A stretch of DNA of 64,000 bases from an uncultured Spirochaetales bacterium (GTDB lineage: Bacteria > Spirochaetota > Spirochaetia > Sphaerochaetales > Sphaerochaetaceae). This document shows, one piece after another, positions 2,645-35,851 of this stretch. Under the pieces are notes generated by a model. It searched no databases and was not told the DNA's origin. It worked only from the letters and a program-made list of their open reading frames with translations. The stretch spans positions 1-64,000 of the forward strand of contig CASDPA010000013.1 of NCBI GenBank assembly GCA_949282255.1, given 5' to 3'. The position numbers and the translations under genes were made by a program. Every line of letters starts with the position of its first letter. Within the stretch, counting starts at the first letter, position 1.

Positions 2645-2678
2645 GTTGGTAATAATTACTAACTAATATGGTAATTAC
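2645..2678 (+). promoter_or_regulatory. Palindromic operator candidates upstream of malic enzyme
   Basis: GTTGGTAAT (2645-2653) and ATTACTAAC (2655-2663) form an inverted repeat matching at 8 of 9 positions around one central A. The 8-bp palindrome GTAATTAC follows at 2671-2678. Both share the core GGTAAT...ATTAC and lie 38-70 bp before the malic enzyme start, a usual place for a regulator. No regulator gene is adjacent. Confidence 0.4.
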
Positions 2679-2715
2679 TTACTTTAAAAAGAATTATATA
2701 AACAGGAGAATACAT

Positions 2716-3999
2716 ATGGATGATTTAGAGAAGAGAGCGTTGGAATATCACTGTCTTGGTGGTAGGGCTGGAAAATTAAGCGTTGAAGCCACCAAGCCCT
2801 GCAAAACAGCAGATGACCTGTCCCTGGCTTACACTCCCGGAGTGGCTAAACCGGTGTTGAGAATAGAAAAGGATGCGGAGGATGCATACCGTTATACCAA
2901 CAAAGGGAATCTGGTGGCTGTTATATCCAACGGAACTGCCATTTTAGGCCTTGGAGACAGGGGAGCCTTGGCTTCAAAACCTGTTATGGAAGGCAAGGGT
3001 GTTCTTTTCAAAAGATTTGCAGATATAGATGTATTCGACATCGAGATCAACGAGAAGGATCCTGACAAGCTTGTAGACATCATAGCTTCCTTGGAGCCGA
3101 CCTTCGGAGGTATCAATCTTGAGGATATCAAAGGACCCGAATGTTTCAAGGTGGAAAGGGAGCTGATAAAAAGATGCTCGATTCCGGTCTTTCATGACGA
3201 CCAGCACGGTACGGCCATAATCGCTACTGCGGGACTTATGAACGCAGCGGAGATTGTCGGTAAGGACTTGGGAAAGATGAAGGTTGTTGTCAACGGAGCA
3301 GGTGCGGCAGGAATATCCTGCTCGAAGATGTTCCTTTCCGCCGGAGTGAGGAAGGAGAATCTCATATTATGCGACAGCAAAGGAGTTATCTATGAAGGAC
3401 GTCAGGGGCTTACGGAGGAAAAGGCGGCATTCGCAGCAAAAACGGACATGAGGACCCTTGCGGAGGCTATGAGAGGGGCGGATGTGTTCATGGGTCTCTC
3501 TGTAAAGGATTGCGTGAGCGCAGATATGCTGCTTTCGATGAACAAGGACCCTGTGGTGTTCGCAATGGCCAATCCCGACCCGGAAATCACTTATGAACTT
3601 GCAATGTCGACAAGAACTGATGTGATCATGGCTACAGGCAGAAGCGATTATCCCAACCAGATAAACAATGTGTTGGGGTTCCCGTTCATATTCCGCGGCG
3701 CACTTGATGTGAGGGCCTCCAGGATAACGGAGAATATGAAGATGGCTGCGGCCAAGGCTCTTGCCGCTTTGGCTAAGGAGCCGGTGCCGGAAGAGGTGCG
3801 CAGGGCTTATGGCGGCGCCGATTTCTCTTTTGGAAGGAACTATATCGTCCCCAAGCCCTTCGATCCAAGGGTGATAGAATATGAGGCGCTGGCTGTTGCC
3901 AAAGCGGCTTGCGAGGATAAGGTAGCAGCTGATCAGATAACAGATTGGGATAGCTACAGGAACAGCCTGGTAAAACGCATGCAAAAGTATTGGTTGTGA
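2716..3999 (+). CDS. NAD(P)-dependent malic enzyme
   Basis: Oxidative decarboxylation of malate to pyruvate. About 427 residues: the short bacterial form without a C-terminal phosphotransacetylase domain. Visible family features are SLAYTPGVA with the catalytic Tyr, [25 protein letters not shown] with the catalytic Lys, the metal ligands in [11 protein letters not shown] and [12 protein letters not shown], and the dinucleotide motif [11 protein letters not shown]. The start at 2716 follows AGGAGA at proper spacing. Palindromic sites upstream suggest control at transcription. The next gene starts three bases after the stop, so the two are probably cotranscribed. It would link C4 acids to pyruvate and NAD(P)H in fermentation. 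Confidence 0.95.
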
Positions 4000-28260: not shown

Positions 28261-30006
28261 TCAGGCCTTCCATTTACCGCTCTTTTCCTGAAGCTCGACC
28301 ATATTGAAGAACGCGCCTTTTTTTTCAAGCAGGGCATCGGGTGCTCCCATTTCCCGGATCCGGCCTTTTTCAAGGACTATGATCTTGTCCGCATTGCGTA
28401 CCGTTCTCATGCGGTGTGCGATTATAAGCACTGTCTTATCCTTGATCAGATGGGATAGGGCCTGCTGGACATGCGTCTCGTTCTCCACATCCAAGCTTGC
28501 AGTCGCCTCGTCCAAAAGAATTACCGGGGCGTTTTTCAAAATCGCGCGGGCGATGCTTATCCTCTGTCTTTCTCCACCCGAGAGCGTGGAGCCGTTCTCT
28601 CCGATCACTGTATCATAGCCGTTGGGAAGTTTTGTTACGAACTCCTCGCAGTTGGCCATCCTTGCCGCCTCGTACACCTCCTCGTCCGATGCTCCCTTTT
28701 TGCCCAGACGTATGTTCTCCTTTATCGTATCGGAAAATAGGACCACATCCTGAAATACGATGGAATAATAAGACAGGAGCTTTTCCGGATCGCACTTGGC
28801 TATGTCCATGCCGCCAAGCGTTATCTTGCCCGCATCGATATCCCAGAATCTTGAGGCCAGGCGGCATGCGGTGCTTTTTCCTCCTCCTGACGGACCTACA
28901 AGTGCCGTTACTTCTCCTTGTTTCGCAGTGAAGCTGACATCCTCCAGCACATCGCGGTCCTCCTCGTAGGAGAAGGACACGTTATTGAATTCCATGTCAT
29001 ATCCATCGGGGCATAGATCCTCCCGGCCCTCCTGCCTTTCCGCTTCAATGATGGTCCTCATTCTCTCTATCTGAAGCCTCGTGCTGAAGACTGCCGCAAT
29101 ATTCTGTAAGACCGTTGCGATCGGATTGTATATCATCGATGCCGCAAAAAGGAAGCCGATGAAATAAACCAGATCCAGAGTCCCGTTGGAAAGCAGCTTC
29201 AGGCCTGTTATGATCGTGGTTGCTATTCCAAGCTTCAAAAGCGCCTGAGCGCCTGTCACGAATATTCCTGTGGCCAGTTCGGATTTGATCGCCGCCTTCT
29301 CCTGCTCGATCAGCTTGTTGTCATAGGCGGCCAATTCCGTATCCTGCATTCTTGCGGATTTAATCTCCTTCACCGTCTCTATCATCTGCTGTATGTGCTC
29401 CGTGACAGCTCGTTTTTTCTCTATGCTTCCCGATCCGTACCTATCCTGTATCCTTTTGGAGCCTGTGGTGATTATGAGCGTGACTGGAACTATCCATAGC
29501 ACTGCGGCCGCCATTTTCCAGTTTATCAGGAACATCATGACCGCGAGCAATGTGGTTGATAATACCGAGCCATACAGCTGTGGTACGTAATGGCTGAACA
29601 TCTGATCCAGATTCGAGCAGTCGTTTATCATTGTCGCGCTGAGGTCGCTCAGATCCTTTTTGCTGAAAAAAGACAGGGGAAGCTTTCTTAGGGTCTCCGC
29701 AAGAGAGATTCTTCTGTTAGCACTTTCCTTGTACACGGCAATATATAAAAACGCATATTGCAGATAGTGGAACAGGAAAAGCAGCACAATGGATATCACG
29801 GAGAATGATATCACTGGAAATATGTTCTCCAAGACGGGAGAGCCTGTTTGCAGTGCGTCCAACATATGTCTGACTGCGAACATCGTCGATGAGACGGGAA
29901 GCATGAGACTTATATTGCAGATGAAGCACCATGATACGGCTTTTATCAGATCCTTGGCCCCTTTTTCGGTAAGGGCGAACGTATGCATCAAACGCCTTGT
30001 CATCAT
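28261..30006 (-). CDS. ABC exporter half-transporter (membrane and ATPase domains), second gene
   Basis: 581 residues: six N-terminal helices (about 1-310) fused to an ATPase domain. Walker A is VGPSGGGKSTACRLA, the signature LSGGERQRISIARAIL, Walker B VILLDEATASLD and the H-loop IIAHRMRTV. Type IV exporter fold. With the preceding gene it makes a probable heterodimer; the ATG at 30006 overlaps the partner's stop by four bases. Exporter pairs of this kind controlled by AraC-type proteins are often linked to metal, siderophore or drug handling, but the substrate cannot be told. Under control of the palindrome at 31800-31820. Confidence 0.92.
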   Translation of the reverse strand: MMTRRLMHTFALTEKGAKDLIKAVSWCFICNISLMLPVSSTMFAVRHMLDALQTGSPVLENIFPVISFSVISIVLLFLFHYLQYAFLYIAVYKESANRRISLAETLRKLPLSFFSKKDLSDLSATMINDCSNLDQMFSHYVPQLYGSVLSTTLLAVMMFLINWKMAAAVLWIVPVTLIITTGSKRIQDRYGSGSIEKKRAVTEHIQQMIETVKEIKSARMQDTELAAYDNKLIEQEKAAIKSELATGIFVTGAQALLKLGIATTIITGLKLLSNGTLDLVYFIGFLFAASMIYNPIATVLQNIAAVFSTRLQIERMRTIIEAERQEGREDLCPDGYDMEFNNVSFSYEEDRDVLEDVSFTAKQGEVTALVGPSGGGKSTACRLASRFWDIDAGKITLGGMDIAKCDPEKLLSYYSIVFQDVVLFSDTIKENIRLGKKGASDEEVYEAARMANCEEFVTKLPNGYDTVIGENGSTLSGGERQRISIARAILKNAPVILLDEATASLDVENETHVQQALSHLIKDKTVLIIAHRMRTVRNADKIIVLEKGRIREMGAPDALLEKKGAFFNMVELQEKSGKWKA

Positions 30007-31784
30007 TTTTCCTCCTTTTTTATCTTCCAGCTTGCGGAAGCTTCATATTCATCCCGCATCCTTTTGTAGGCTCCGTTTTTTTCGAGCAGCTCGGAGGCTG
30101 TTCCCTCTTCGATCTTTCTTCCTTCGGATATTACGATGATCTTGTCCGCATCCTCGACGCTGGAAAGACGATGCGCGATCATCAATACCGTTTTTCCCTT
30201 CATAAGGTTCGTGAAGGCTTTCTGTATCAGGTATTCATTTTCCGGATCGGTGAAGGCTGTGGCCTCGTCGAGTATGACGATCGGTGCGTCCTTGAGGATG
30301 GCGCGGGCTATCGCTATTCTCTGCTTCTGTCCTCCGGAAAGGTAGGTGCCTTTTGTCCCGATCACGGTATCAAGCCCTCTTGGAAGGGTGTTTATGAATT
30401 CAAGTGCCTGCGCCTTTTTTGCCGCTTCCATAACTTCGGCCCGGCTTGCATCAGGCTTTGCGGATCTGATGTTGTCAAAGATGCTTTTTTTAAATAGGCA
30501 GGGATCCTGGAAAACAAACGAAATGTTTTTCATCAGACACTCCTCGGTATAGGATCGCACATCATCTCCTCCGATTCTTATTTCTCCCTTTTTTATGTCG
30601 AAGAAACGTGGAACAAGGCTTGCCACGGTTGTTTTTCCTCCTCCGGAAGGGCCGATCAGAGCCACGGTGGTTCCTTGCTCGATGGAAAAGGAAACTCCGT
30701 CCACCGCCGCCGGAGCATCCTCCGAATAGGAGAAGACGACATTGTCGAATTCGATTCCGTAAGCGTCCATCCGATCCTTTTTCCCGAATTCCATCAAAGG
30801 CTCCGAGAAAATCTCATCAAGCCTGAATACCGCCTCGTTTGCCTTCATCACGGATTCCGAGGCGTACATGACCCTGTTTATCGAGGCTCCGCAGGCCGGG
30901 GCGAAAATGGAGTAGAAGATGAAGTTTGCAATTACCTGCCACCCGTTTCCACCTGCTGCTAAAAACAGCGCGGCAGGAATCAGCAGGAAAAACGCTCCGT
31001 TTATGCACACCAGAAATATGGTCTGACCCGTCCTGCAGCTCATCGCATACTTTCCTGCCAGGTCGCTGTAGCTCATTATCGCCCTGTAAAAGGCCTTGAA
31101 CGACCATATCGTCTGCTGGAAGGTTTTCACAACCGGAATCCCCCTGACATATTCAACCGCCTCCGCACTCATTTTCTCGATCTCCCTTTGATAGCGGTGG
31201 AAAAAGCCGGCGTTCTTTCCACTCATCATCCCCGCCATTGCCGCAATGGATGCAGCCATTGTAAAAAGGCAGATCGCTCCCATTATCGGATCGAAGACGA
31301 ACAGCACGAAGATCGAGACGATCGGGGTGACTACGGCTCCAGTGAGATCGGGGAATTTATGCGCGATCAGATCCTCTGTCAGGCCGGCGTTGTCATCTAT
31401 GATCTTTCGAAGCCGTCCGCTCATGTTCTTTGAGAAAAATCCCATCGGAAGGGCTATCGCATGGCAGAGCGCGGCCTTTCTCATGTTCCTTGCGGTCCTG
31501 AAGGCTGCGATATGAGTGCACATCAGGGCTGCAAAATAAAGGACCACGTTCAAAAGCGCGGCATAAAGTGCATACCAACCCCATTTCGCAAGCTGTTCCA
31601 CATTTGAAAACATGGGATATGAGGCAAGCGCATCACGTGCTGTGAAATAAATGAATATGTAGGGCAGCAGACCCACAGCCGATGCGAACCCGCTCAGGGT
31701 GCATCCGAGGACAATAAGTTTCTTGTAACCTCCGCTGAACGACAGCAACCGCTTCCAGCATGAAGGTTTTTTTTCCTTTTTCAT
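30003..31784 (-). CDS. ABC exporter half-transporter (membrane and ATPase domains), first gene
   Basis: 593 residues: six transmembrane helices and a C-terminal ATPase with Walker A IGPSGGGKTTVASLV, signature YLSGGQKQRIAIARAIL, Walker B IVILDEATAFTD and H-loop IAHRLSSV. In Walker B the residues after the catalytic Glu are ATAFTD instead of ATASLD, and the partner has the standard form. AGGAG precedes the ATG at 31784. A palindrome 16 bp before the start codon is shared with the AraC-type gene upstream, so the operon is probably regulated by that protein. Confidence 0.92.
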   Translation of the reverse strand: MKKEKKPSCWKRLLSFSGGYKKLIVLGCTLSGFASAVGLLPYIFIYFTARDALASYPMFSNVEQLAKWGWYALYAALLNVVLYFAALMCTHIAAFRTARNMRKAALCHAIALPMGFFSKNMSGRLRKIIDDNAGLTEDLIAHKFPDLTGAVVTPIVSIFVLFVFDPIMGAICLFTMAASIAAMAGMMSGKNAGFFHRYQREIEKMSAEAVEYVRGIPVVKTFQQTIWSFKAFYRAIMSYSDLAGKYAMSCRTGQTIFLVCINGAFFLLIPAALFLAAGGNGWQVIANFIFYSIFAPACGASINRVMYASESVMKANEAVFRLDEIFSEPLMEFGKKDRMDAYGIEFDNVVFSYSEDAPAAVDGVSFSIEQGTTVALIGPSGGGKTTVASLVPRFFDIKKGEIRIGGDDVRSYTEECLMKNISFVFQDPCLFKKSIFDNIRSAKPDASRAEVMEAAKKAQALEFINTLPRGLDTVIGTKGTYLSGGQKQRIAIARAILKDAPIVILDEATAFTDPENEYLIQKAFTNLMKGKTVLMIAHRLSSVEDADKIIVISEGRKIEEGTASELLEKNGAYKRMRDEYEASASWKIKKEEK

Positions 31785-31799
31785 GGCAGGCTCCTATAG

Positions 31800-31820
31800 T
31801 TTGTTAGAATGAACTAACTA
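31800..31820 (-). promoter_or_regulatory. Operator of the ABC exporter operon (GTTAG-N6-CTAAC)
   Basis: GTTAG (31803-31807), six bases AATGAA, CTAAC (31814-31818). With flanks it matches the site before the AraC gene at 19 of 21 positions when one is inverted. It begins 16 bp upstream of the ATG. On the minus strand a TATAGT -10 box lies at 31823-31828, so the site covers the transcription start region. Confidence 0.65.
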
Positions 31821-31869: not shown

Positions 31870-32880
31870 TCAATCCGATTCATCATCGATTTTGTCATTG
31901 CAGAATTTCGATCTGTAAAGGGCGGGGGAGGAGCCCATTATCGCTTTGAAAGCGGATGCGAACTTGCTTTGGTTCTCATATCCGCACATGGCGGCCGCGT
32001 CCGATATCTGCATCAGAGGGTTTTGCTCGAGAAGGCTAGCCGCGTATTTTATCCTCAGATTCTTTTTGAACGCCCCCATGGGTTGTCCGTAGATGTTCTT
32101 GAAGCATTCCCTTAGGCTGGTTTCCGCAAGATTGTATTTTTCAGCGAGACTTTTTGATGTGGTTTTCAGCGTCGGATTCTTCACCAGGAAGGAATAACAT
32201 CTTCTTGTGCGTTCGACGACGGTGCGGGAAAACTGCGGGATGAAATCCTCCTTTTCGAACATCCTGTTGTCAAGAAGGACAAGCAGCTCGACGATCTTGA
32301 GCGGAAGATAATTGTTCTTCAACGATTCCTCGGCTTTATCGACTTCGTAGAAAATATGGTTTATTTCGCTTCTTGAGCGCAAAAAGAATATGTTCTTATC
32401 CGAAAAAAGTTTTTGTTTCAAGTTTTCCAGATTGATATCGGCAAAGGAAAAATGCTTGTCCAGCTCCTTTTGGGCGACCTTTGTTTCTATTATTATGGTA
32501 AGTCCCTCATATCGTCCGGAGGGGACCCTGCTCGCGGTGATCCTGTTTTTTTCGGGAAGTGTCATGCATAGATCGCCTTCGGAGAGGAAGCATATCTGAT
32601 TGTCGTTCATCACTACCTCGTAGCTTCCCTTCCTGCAGTAGTTTATCTGTATGTAGCCGAGAGGAGCAGAGGCCTTTTGGAAACAGGAGTCGCAGTCCAA
32701 TGTGTCATAGCTTATATCGATGCCCGGAATTATTTCGGCACATTTCATTACAGCACAGCCCGAGCCTCCGTATCCGGGCAGGACATAGGTTGTATATGCG
32801 CCATCCGTGCTTATTCTTTCAAACCTGTAGCCGGACATGTATGGCCACCCAGGTTTTCTTTGATCCAGCTTGGTATCCAT
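31870..32880 (-). CDS. AraC-family transcriptional regulator
   Basis: 336 residues. The N-terminal effector part includes YIQINYCRKGSYEVVMNDNQICFLSEGDL, a cupin-like sensing stretch. The C-terminal double helix-turn-helix reads KSLAEKYNLAETSLRECFKNIYGQPMGAFKKNLRIKYAASLL and then ISDAAAMCGYENQSKFASAFKAIMGSSPALYRS, complete for the family. AGGAA precedes the ATG at 32880. It lies directly before the ABC exporter operon on the same strand and shares its palindromic operator, so it probably controls both itself and the exporter. The ligand is unknown. Similar regulator-exporter sets include the YbtA/YbtPQ type, but that comparison is loose. Confidence 0.9.
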   Translation of the reverse strand: MDTKLDQRKPGWPYMSGYRFERISTDGAYTTYVLPGYGGSGCAVMKCAEIIPGIDISYDTLDCDSCFQKASAPLGYIQINYCRKGSYEVVMNDNQICFLSEGDLCMTLPEKNRITASRVPSGRYEGLTIIIETKVAQKELDKHFSFADINLENLKQKLFSDKNIFFLRSRSEINHIFYEVDKAEESLKNNYLPLKIVELLVLLDNRMFEKEDFIPQFSRTVVERTRRCYSFLVKNPTLKTTSKSLAEKYNLAETSLRECFKNIYGQPMGAFKKNLRIKYAASLLEQNPLMQISDAAAMCGYENQSKFASAFKAIMGSSPALYRSKFCNDKIDDESD

Positions 32881-32895
32881 ATTATGATTCCTACT

Positions 32896-32934
32896 TAGTT
32901 AGCTAATTCTAACAAAAGCAGGTGAAAATGTCAT
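32896..32934 (-). promoter_or_regulatory. Promoter and operator of the AraC-type gene
   Basis: GTTAG (32898-32902), CTAATT, CTAAC (32909-32913), the same palindrome as at the exporter operon and again beginning 16 bp before the ATG. On the minus strand ATGACA (32929-32934), a 17-bp spacer and TAGAAT (32906-32911, with TGT before it) form a promoter whose -10 box lies inside the palindrome. Binding would block it, so autorepression is likely. Confidence 0.65.
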
Positions 32935-33423: not shown

Positions 33424-34533
33424 TCATTGCTCCTCTTTTCCATCCCATGAATAGCCTTGGAACACGGGCTTTCCCGTATATATGTGCGCCTTTTCCTTTT
33501 TAGTGATAACCTCCATGACCGCTTCACACATGGCCTGTTGCTCCATTTCACCGGGGTAAGTATATACAGGGGCTATCCAGGAGCATTTCTCCTTTATGCC
33601 CGATACAATATCATCGAAGCGCACAAGCCCTCCGGTGAGAAGTATCGCATCGACCTTTCCTTCAAGGACCGCCGCCATCGCTCCGATCTCCTTGCAGATC
33701 TGGTATGTCATCGTCTTCCAGACAAGAGTGGCATGCTCGTCCTTGGCCTCGACCATTTTGTGTATCCTGTCTGAATCGGATGTGCCGAAATGGCTGACAA
33801 AGCCGCCGGAACGCGAACACATGGCCTCAAGCTCCTTTGCCGAATGCCTTTCGACAAATTTCGCAGTCTCCATTATCGGAATGCTTCCAAGCCGGGTAGG
33901 GGTGAACGGCCCGTCGCCTCCCGCCCCCTCGGTTCCGTCGATCATCCTGCCGTTTCTATGCGCCGCAATCGTTATTCCTCCGTCTATATGGCATACTATG
34001 AACGAGCATTCCTCGTATCTCCTGCCCATCCGTCCGGCATGAAACGCTGCGACCGCTTTCTGGTTCAGAACATGGGACTGCGCTCTTCTGTAGACCCCCT
34101 TGAGTCCTGTTATCCTCGCCTCGTCGCAAAGCTCGTCCACATTCGTGGGGTTCACGGTATACATGGGTTTATGATGTTCGCATCCGAATTCATAGGCCAT
34201 CATCACCCCGAGCTTCGCAGGATGGTCGCTTCCTCCCTTGTCGTTTTTCGTATCTTCGAATAGCCTTTTATCGATGATCATGACACCGGACGGTTGCGAA
34301 TATGCACAGCCTCCGCGACCGACAAAAACATCGATGTCCACGATATCCATGCCGTGTTCTGCCAAAAAATCGAGCACGACCTTCTTTCTCATTCCAATCT
34401 GGTCGTTGGTGGTCCTGAACTGCAATAGCTCGGGCGCGTCATGGAAGATGCTTTTTGTAAATAGTTCATCATAATCTTCAAATACGCTCATTTTCGTCGA
34501 TGTGGATCCGGGATTGATAATCAACAATTTCAT
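33424..34533 (-). CDS. buk: Butyrate kinase
   Basis: Interconverts butyryl phosphate plus ADP and butyrate plus ATP. About 369 residues of the ASKHA fold: MKLLIINPGSTSTKMSVFED at the N-terminus, GRGGCAYSQPSGV, HIDGGITIAAHRNGRMIDGTEGAGGDGPFTPTRLG and LTGGLVRFDDIV. No phosphotransbutyrylase gene is adjacent, so use with a distant partner, or with branched-chain acids, is possible. I chose the ATG at 34533, which matches the family N-terminus: TATCAT ends seven bases before it and TTGCAA lies 16 bp further, with no ribosome site. An ATG at 34557 is the alternative. Confidence 0.92.
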   Translation of the reverse strand: MKLLIINPGSTSTKMSVFEDYDELFTKSIFHDAPELLQFRTTNDQIGMRKKVVLDFLAEHGMDIVDIDVFVGRGGCAYSQPSGVMIIDKRLFEDTKNDKGGSDHPAKLGVMMAYEFGCEHHKPMYTVNPTNVDELCDEARITGLKGVYRRAQSHVLNQKAVAAFHAGRMGRRYEECSFIVCHIDGGITIAAHRNGRMIDGTEGAGGDGPFTPTRLGSIPIMETAKFVERHSAKELEAMCSRSGGFVSHFGTSDSDRIHKMVEAKDEHATLVWKTMTYQICKEIGAMAAVLEGKVDAILLTGGLVRFDDIVSGIKEKCSWIAPVYTYPGEMEQQAMCEAVMEVITKKEKAHIYTGKPVFQGYSWDGKEEQ

Positions 34534-34567: not shown

Positions 34568-34599
34568 AAAACCGGGATGAAGGGAAGGAAAAACTAATA

Positions 34600-34628
34600 T
34601 TGACAATAAGTTAGATTAAGCTTACTTT
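34600..34628 (+). promoter_or_regulatory. Promoter with degenerate copy of the GTTAG-N6-CTAAC operator
   Basis: TTGACA (34600-34605), 17-bp spacer, TACTTT (34623-34628). The spacer and the first part of the -10 contain GTTAG (34610-34614), ATTAAG, CTTAC (34621-34625), which is the exporter operator with one changed base. Wider symmetry, AAGTTAG...CTTACTT, extends around it. Confidence 0.5.
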
Positions 34629-34637
34629 TATTGTAGG

Positions 34638-34666
34638 GATATCCCATCCCGGATGGGGGAGATATC
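34638..34666 (+). other. Leader hairpin before the small ORF
   Basis: GATAT and ATATC (34638-34642 and 34662-34666) form an outer stem, and CCCAT and ATGGG (34643-34647 and 34653-34657) an inner stem, with a GGGA bulge on the 3' side. The hairpin ends one base before the AAGGAGG ribosome site, so folding could affect initiation. Confidence 0.45.
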
Positions 34667-34678
34667 AAGGAGGATGTA

Positions 34679-34765
34679 ATGGGGAGATGGCGCGTGCTTT
34701 TAAGGAAAAGGATTACGATCGCCGCCATTGCCGCAGTCCTTGTTTTTTCTTTGATGTGCCGGTAA
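34679..34765 (+). CDS. Small 28-residue membrane peptide or leader ORF
   Basis: MGRWRVLLRKRI followed by TIAAIAAVLVFSLMCR: a positively charged start and one hydrophobic helix. A strong AAGGAGG lies five bases before the ATG, and a TTGACA promoter and a structured leader precede it. It ends about 80 bp before the substrate-binding protein gene, which has its own promoter and ribosome site. It may be a small membrane protein or a leader peptide. The charged and hydrophobic layout also resembles a bare signal sequence, so a truncated gene is possible. The rest of 34566-34846 holds only these regulatory elements. Confidence 0.4.
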   Translation: MGRWRVLLRKRITIAAIAAVLVFSLMCR

Positions 34766-34846
34766 TCTGAAAAGTTATGTTTCTTTTGAAAGCAACTTTA
34801 CATTTCCGCATGTTTCGTTGTATAGTAACGCATGTCGGAGGATACT

Positions 34847-35851
34847 ATGAAAAGAATCATAATTCCTGTTTTCATTATTTTATCGGCTGTTTTGGCTTTT
34901 ACTGTTTTCGCTCAAGGAACAAAAGAGACTGCTCCCACCGCTTTTGATACCGATGAGGAGATTGTCAAAATTGGAATTTCCAAACTGATGCCACATCCGG
35001 CCCTCGATGCGATAGAGCAGGGGATAAAGGATTATCTCGCAACCACTGGAAGGAATATAAGCTATGATGTTCAGAATGCGAACGGGGAGATTGCGGCCGC
35101 AAGCCAGATAGCACAGCTTTTTAAAAATGAGAAAACCGATATCAACATCGCGATCGCCACTCCGACGGCGCAGGCCATAGCCAATACCGATTTGTCCGTG
35201 CCTCTTGTTTTCTCCTCGGTCACAGATCCTGTTTCCGCAGGTCTTTTGGGAGAGGGGATGGAGAATGTTTGCGGTGTATCTGATATGGTTCCTGTCAGGG
35301 CTCACCTTGATCTGATATCTTCTATCAAGGAGATAAAAACACTAGGGATGATCTATACGATGGGGGAGGCTAACGGCGTGGTACTGATGGAGGAAATGAA
35401 AAAGGCCTGCGAGGAAAAAGGAATAGGCTTTGTTTCCGCTTCCGTGGTCAACTCAAGCGAGGTCAGAATGGCCGCCGAGTCTATAATAGACCGTGTGGAT
35501 GCCGTATATGTGGCAACGGACAACACAGTCATTTCCGCCATAACAGCCCTTTCCGATGTGTGCATGGCCCACAAGATCCCGCTTTTCAGCGCCGATACCA
35601 CGAGCAGCTACGATACGGAGGTCCTTCTTGCGGGAGGCTTTGATTATTATGCCTCCGGCGTGTTGACAGGAAGGATTGTGGAGAAAGTCCTTTCCGGAAA
35701 GAAGCCTGAGGAGATAGGCACCGAATACCTCGATGCCTCATCGTTGGAGATTTATGTGAACCTGGATGTCGCCAGAAAGCTCGGCCTCGATATCCCCGAG
35801 GATATCATCAATGATGCAAAAACCGTAATAAAGGATGGCCGTCAGGTATGA
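34847..35851 (+). CDS. ABC transporter substrate-binding protein, TrpX/pfam04392 type
   Basis: About 334 residues with an N-terminal signal peptide (MKRIIIPVFIILSAVLAFTVFAQG) and a periplasmic two-lobed binding domain: IGISKLMPHPALDAIEQGIKDYL, ATPTAQAIANTDLSVPLVFSSVTDPVSAGL, DAVYVATDNTV and the GGFDYYASG segment. Family members bind tryptophan, tyrosine or other small solutes; the ligand here is unknown. The permease and ATPase genes that usually follow are absent; the next gene is convergent. The ATG at 34847 has GGAGG. TTTACA and TATAGT boxes lie upstream, the latter five bases before an alternative in-frame ATG at 34832. Confidence 0.88.
   Translation: MKRIIIPVFIILSAVLAFTVFAQGTKETAPTAFDTDEEIVKIGISKLMPHPALDAIEQGIKDYLATTGRNISYDVQNANGEIAAASQIAQLFKNEKTDINIAIATPTAQAIANTDLSVPLVFSSVTDPVSAGLLGEGMENVCGVSDMVPVRAHLDLISSIKEIKTLGMIYTMGEANGVVLMEEMKKACEEKGIGFVSASVVNSSEVRMAAESIIDRVDAVYVATDNTVISAITALSDVCMAHKIPLFSADTTSSYDTEVLLAGGFDYYASGVLTGRIVEKVLSGKKPEEIGTEYLDASSLEIYVNLDVARKLGLDIPEDIINDAKTVIKDGRQV

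Follow-up and report, generated by a model that had tools for sequence, protein, structure and literature searches.

KdpF, MgtR, AcrZ and CydX are small membrane proteins that tune transporters. In E. coli, the small-protein gene mntS belongs to the metal regulon of MntR, a DtxR-family repressor whose operator lies at the mntS promoter (PMC4361602, PMC9806134). The product, MntS, has 42 residues and is related to manganese (PMC4361602). Among spirochaetes, TroR of Treponema denticola and T. pallidum is a DtxR-family repressor that responds to both manganese and iron, and its operator, 18 bases long with dyad symmetry, lies at a promoter and controls the troABCD transporter (PMC2628430).

Here we describe a locus of an uncultured spirochaete in which a short reading frame follows an operator-bearing promoter. 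The window, meaning the whole stretch of 64,000 nucleotides that was analysed, contains this locus at 34598-34765, which we are inclined to regard, with moderate confidence, as a short transcription unit belonging to a regulon for iron starvation. On the best reading the module, which is limited to one lineage, has an iron-repressed promoter giving rise to a short mRNA for a membrane peptide. It would offer a testable example of a small-protein gene that arose recently and came under metal control.

The locus and its promoter-operator block

From left to right the locus consists of the divergent buk gene, a promoter-operator block, a leader, the ribosome-binding site AAGGAGG, a 28-codon reading frame, a second promoter and a PF04392 gene. 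These features and two operators of the same class further to the left are as follows.

28261-30006 and 30003-31784, minus strand, with operator at 31803-31818 (no strand assigned): ABC pair preceded by an operator of the same class (motif score 18.2; ABC domains)
32898-32913, no strand assigned: operator of the same class before an AraC-type gene (31870-32880, minus strand; motif score 26.9)
33424-34533, minus strand: butyrate kinase gene buk, divergent neighbour (NCBIfam TIGR02707, 364.5 bits, exceeding the cut-off of 289.1)
34598-34629, plus strand: promoter-operator block (identity across 3/3 species having the block; motif score 22.7)
34638-34666, plus strand: imperfect inverted repeat of the leader, drawn earlier as a hairpin, an unsupported feature (shuffles; relatives)
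34667-34673, plus strand: ribosome-binding site AAGGAGG (sequence)
34679-34765, plus strand: 28-codon reading frame MGRWRVLLRKRITIAAIAAVLVFSLMCR, its product predicted to span the membrane once (the sole open frame common to the three species)
34797-34826, plus strand: the binding-protein gene's own promoter, TTTACA-18-TATAGT (promoter scan; same layout in relatives)
34847-35851, plus strand: PF04392 ABC substrate-binding protein, TrpX-like (Pfam; NCBIfam; GGAGG just upstream of the start)

The first-pass annotation of this DNA had read the locus, which lies between buk and an orphan binding protein, as a small regulated gene or a leader, and this description fits. The operator and the reading frame are both kept in three species, the NCBIfam profile confirms buk as the neighbour, and no permease or ATPase lies beside the PF04392 gene within the window. 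The promoter is likewise present as described, with TTGACA (34600-34605), a 17-base spacer and TACTTT (34623-34628) enclosing an operator one base from the one called the exporter operator. This site, GTTAGATTAAGCTTAC (34610-34625, GTTAG-N6-CTTAC), differs by a single base from the perfect palindromes at 31803 and 32898. The -10 element is weak, TACTTT agreeing with TATAAT at only 3 of 6 positions, and TTGACA-17-TACTTT was not listed by the promoter scan.

The 32-base block is unchanged among the three species of the genus in which it occurs, and the bases just outside it differ. Because the 40-base upstream flank diverges, being 70% identical between the window and genome G003 and 90% between the window and G034, the 32/32 identity exceeds expectation, although the three species compared are related and do not count as independent samples. 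A 29-mer was found with up to three mismatches in 3 of 48 genomes of the genus, a scan of genome contigs with TTGACANNNNGTTAGNTTAAGCTTAC matched two records, and the combination of small reading frame and operator is absent from all other genomes among the 48. Similarly, a motif scan placed the operator beside the binding-protein gene in only 3 of 30 loci, those of this genome, G034 and G003. The promoter and operator are real, and the operator class is identified at good confidence.

The nearness of buk, which starts 65 bases to the left on the opposite strand, raises the reading that the operator controls this gene. We consider that highly improbable, as the conserved block reads as a plus-strand promoter and, among 30 buk loci scanned, the site stands beside buk in only the three that have the small reading frame.

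The genus motif, its predicted regulon and the candidate regulator

With up to one mismatch allowed, the plain pattern has 6 matches in the window against 2.71 expected, a number reached by 9 of 100 shuffles. This count gives no decision on the sites; the genus motif does. The motif derives from 49 sites, all of them on other contigs or in other genomes, this contig being left out, and prefers an inner C/G (GTTAGC-N4-GCTAAC). The three window sites rank first, second and third of the 64 kb with scores of 26.9, 22.7 and 18.2 (the site at 34610-34625 is second, and the next score is 7.0), and the best score in 30 random 64-kb sequences was 13.5, although there is a circularity in that the training sites were gathered through the GTTAG core, itself suggested by the window sites. 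Independent checks on the motif come from the genes behind the sites and from imperfect sites at feo. The weak fourth match, GGTAATAATTACTAAC at 2648-2663 (score 7.0), lies just before a reading frame at 2668-3999. This genome has GTTAGN6CTWAC at 12 places, including 7 on contig C12. Raw counts of the pattern in each of the 48 genomes were set aside as evidence because a reversed control pattern often gave numbers just as high.

In this genome the sites stand before ABC pairs (one beside a TetR gene), a peroxiredoxin, a glycyl-radical enzyme, a histidine phosphatase, a region with HMA_2 and a P-type ATPase, DUF3793 and methyltransferases. In relatives they precede pyruvate:ferredoxin oxidoreductase, DUF3793 with flavodoxin, feoA and DtxR-family genes. 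Twenty further loci, chosen from a cut-off list of genus pattern matches, contain 29 exact sites. Of these, 6 lie near feoA-type genes (at L138 and L143 feoA starts about 240 bases from the site and another gene is nearer), 6 at DUF3793-type genes, 6 at ABC pairs, 4 at peroxiredoxin, 2 at DtxR genes and 5 at other genes or none. Some of these genes were labelled by the similarity of their first 60 residues; when nine such pieces were tested, FeoA (4/4), DtxR (2/2) and one peroxiredoxin were confirmed, a DUF3793 piece fell just under the cut-off, and a glycyl-radical piece had no match. The feoA operons of this genome, G034 and G003 carry imperfect motif sites that were outside the training set. 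What was earlier named the exporter operator is better described as a genus-wide, DtxR-type iron-regulon operator.

Pyruvate:ferredoxin oxidoreductase has an operator upstream at L084 (6050-6065, family assigned by NCBIfam profile) and L086 (5983-5998, by start sequence), an arrangement by which this switch would also govern a central iron-sulfur enzyme. Seven operator sites, three ABC pairs, a peroxiredoxin, a glycyl-radical enzyme and a P-type ATPase are gathered in one stretch of this genome (L063 and L064; contig C12, 1-36000). The stretch is a mosaic: 5.6 kb of it are 96% identical to G019 and 2.5 kb are 95% identical to G021, although both are species of the genus distant from this one. 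It is either a metal island that was exchanged not long ago or a contig assigned to the wrong bin. A limited literature search found no description of the regulon, including DUF3793 paired with flavodoxin. What appeared as a stray operator-like palindrome leads in this way to the prediction that an uncultured spirochaete genus has an iron regulon. With its feo, flavodoxin, peroxiredoxin and pyruvate:ferredoxin oxidoreductase genes and its ABC pairs, this regulon may turn out to be more useful than the peptide.

The motif behaves as would the operator of a DtxR-family, iron-type regulon. Sites lie right upstream of DtxR-family genes in 9 loci, all of a second DtxR type. Among 30 DtxR-type loci scanned, out of 50 places listed, 7 have a tandem operator pair upstream of the DtxR gene, 20 bases apart and with one or two core mismatches (L112, L115, L116, L118, L121, L122 and L125), and single exact sites precede the DtxR genes at L127 and L128. 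The tandem operators before the second-type gene suggest cooperative autoregulation. The DtxR homologue of this genome (contig C3, 12806-13183; PF01325, 33.6 bits, and PF02742, 55.4 bits, both over the cut-off) has no site upstream of its gene, and its type has a site in 0 of 14 loci; most of the helix stretch KPSV.RAM is common to both types. The best structure matches of the homologue are to MntR, and it is under the MntR cut-offs of NCBIfam. It has a cysteine in DAC.IEH, which we take to be the iron-type ligand of DtxR, a position held by glutamate in MntR. We infer iron rather than manganese because of this cysteine and the gene content.

Two Fur homologues are also present in this genome. 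Since Fur homologues occur in 48/48 genomes of the genus and a DtxR homologue (E up to 1e-8) in 44/48, and since G006 and G012 have sites and no DtxR match at that threshold, another regulator (Fur, a CRP/FNR-type protein or the TetR/AraC-type proteins encoded close to some sites) stays a rival for the operator. TetR genes stand beside several ABC-pair sites, and the 5-6-5 layout also fits CRP-type sites. Nevertheless we judge this rival unlikely: the operator sequence differs from the Fur box, the sites before DtxR-family genes point elsewhere, and the combination of feo, flavodoxin and peroxiredoxin argues for a global metal regulator and not a local TetR/AraC-type one.

In the mechanism we favor, a DtxR-family repressor loaded with Fe2+ would bind GTTAG-N6-CTTAC between the -35 and -10 elements and block RNA polymerase. 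When iron falls the repressor would leave and a short mRNA would be made, on which the strong ribosome site would start a peptide of 28-30 residues. Its N-terminus is basic, and its single hydrophobic helix is predicted to cross the inner membrane in the N-in orientation. The transcript would probably also run into the PF04392 gene, because no terminator is listed between the reading frame and that gene, and would add an iron-starvation output to the gene's own promoter.

The short reading frame and the binding-protein gene

The first-pass annotation had placed a leader hairpin ending at AAGGAGG, followed by a 28-codon reading frame with a charged start and one hydrophobic helix. The hairpin did not hold up. 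It can be drawn at 34638-34666, but its energy is that of shuffles (z 0.40, 0.35 and -1.14), its arms are missing in both relatives, G034 and G003, and no Rfam family came near threshold for the leader (best E 0.78). A structured regulatory leader was rejected on the shuffle z-scores together with the lack of conservation in the two relatives.

The ribosome site and reading frame are present, the helix being predicted, and the frame, whose conservation in relatives had been named as a check, is kept in 3/3 species having it. It runs from the ATG at 34679 to 34765, behind AAGGAGG in the window and G034 and a weaker GGGGG in G003. This is the sole frame open in all three species (MGRWRVLLRKRITIAAIAAVLVFSLMCR, MNRWRMLLKKKITIAAILATVLLYSFTRCF and MNRWRILLKKKITIAAIFATVLFYFFTR), with the same ATG, a stop at 28-30 codons and a closed frame beyond. 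The peptides retain a basic start, an ITIAAI core and a hydrophobic stretch, the hydrophobic 15-mers averaging 2.25-2.66 on the Kyte-Doolittle scale; the stop position and the second half of the frame vary between species. A 40-base patch at the end of the frame (34726-34765) is 48% identical to G034 in ungapped alignment against about 90% around it, and may be either a local replacement or a relaxed stretch.

In substitution-shuffling on exchange scores, the window compared with each relative gave P values of 0.05-0.06 when a one-codon gap was allowed and 0.004-0.013 when it was left out; G034 compared with G003 gave 0.016-0.06. Identical-residue counts were weaker (P 0.01-0.28, and 0.02-0.28 when the complete frame was used). 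Differences at the three codon positions number 2, 1 and 7 between G034 and G003 and 8, 7 and 8 between the window and G034, with no third-position excess in the latter comparison. Selection on the peptide is supported no more than marginally, translation of the frame is likely, and the frame is probably a small gene.

The peptide belongs to no Pfam family. A search of the 48 genomes gave matches at E up to 1 in 16, with only the three known loci below 1e-4; the others lie in other frames, most of them long, the best (E 0.0011) in one of 399 residues. Such weak similarity to the beginnings or segments of long frames, and the differing stop position, are what might be seen if the frame were a relic of a longer membrane-protein gene whose first part had stayed behind with its promoter. 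This is quite doubtful, given that a relic should have lost both frame and operator, and that the absence of a Pfam family, the shared ATG and the closed frame after 28-30 codons also speak against it.

The downstream PF04392 protein is found in 49 of 60 related genomes, most of which carry two such genes, and 30 of the loci were retrieved. Its identity is 98% in G034 and 92% in G003, and its gene most likely starts at 34847. With 237.3 bits it stays below the cut-off of 390 of NF041285, the NCBIfam profile for the tryptophan-binding protein TrpX; the protein is a PF04392 member. Its paralogue on contig C24 differs in having a permease or ATPase beside it.

The stop of the short frame is 75-82 bases from the binding-protein ATG in all three species. 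This spacing, with the lack of a listed terminator and the variable second half and stop, would suit a promoter that serves to make the binding-protein gene iron-responsive, the short frame being a translated leader or functionless. We hold this to be a less probable account, though one to be taken seriously, as the binding-protein gene keeps its own promoter right upstream and the short frame keeps its start, frame and ITIAAI core. A GTAAC...G(T/A)TAC inverted repeat occurs at the gene's own promoter in 20 of 30 binding-protein loci, overlapping the region from the -10 to the ribosome site of the PF04392 gene (34818-34849; L004-L025). In most loci its spacing is 3-6; L004 and L006 have 9, and the window, whose copy is wider and imperfect, has 11. 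The repeat is possibly a second operator or an RNA element. We hypothesize that the PF04392 gene of this clade has retained a promoter of its own, in which the repeat is weakened, and has acquired an additional, iron-type promoter ahead of it.

Comparison with known metal regulons and small proteins

The resemblance to TroR is that of a spirochaete DtxR-family repressor with a dyad-symmetric operator at a promoter. The Treponema tro operator was rejected as the same motif, its mutated form, as printed, not resembling GTTAG-N6-CTAAC (PMC2628430). With DtxR/IdeR-type iron regulons the predicted regulon shares genes for ferrous iron uptake and DtxR-type regulators with palindromic operators. GTTAGC-N4-GCTAAC differs from the 19-base DtxR box, and binding here is predicted; a limited literature search found no description of GTTAGC-N4-GCTAAC as a DtxR-type operator.

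The likeness of the peptide to KdpF, MgtR, AcrZ and CydX is one of size class and of a predicted single hydrophobic helix. Tentatively, and with more doubt than belief, we suggest that a lineage-specific membrane peptide induced by iron starvation acts on a transporter, either the nearby ABC pair or the orphan PF04392 protein, and is an iron counterpart of MntS that arose in one spirochaete clade under a DtxR-type operator. The likeness to mntS is one of arrangement: a small-protein gene under a metal-loaded DtxR-family repressor with its operator at the promoter. Unlike MntS, the peptide here has 28-30 residues, is hydrophobic and falls in a predicted regulon with iron genes. The peptide gene would work like mntS, but by anything compared here it is no member of the mntS family.
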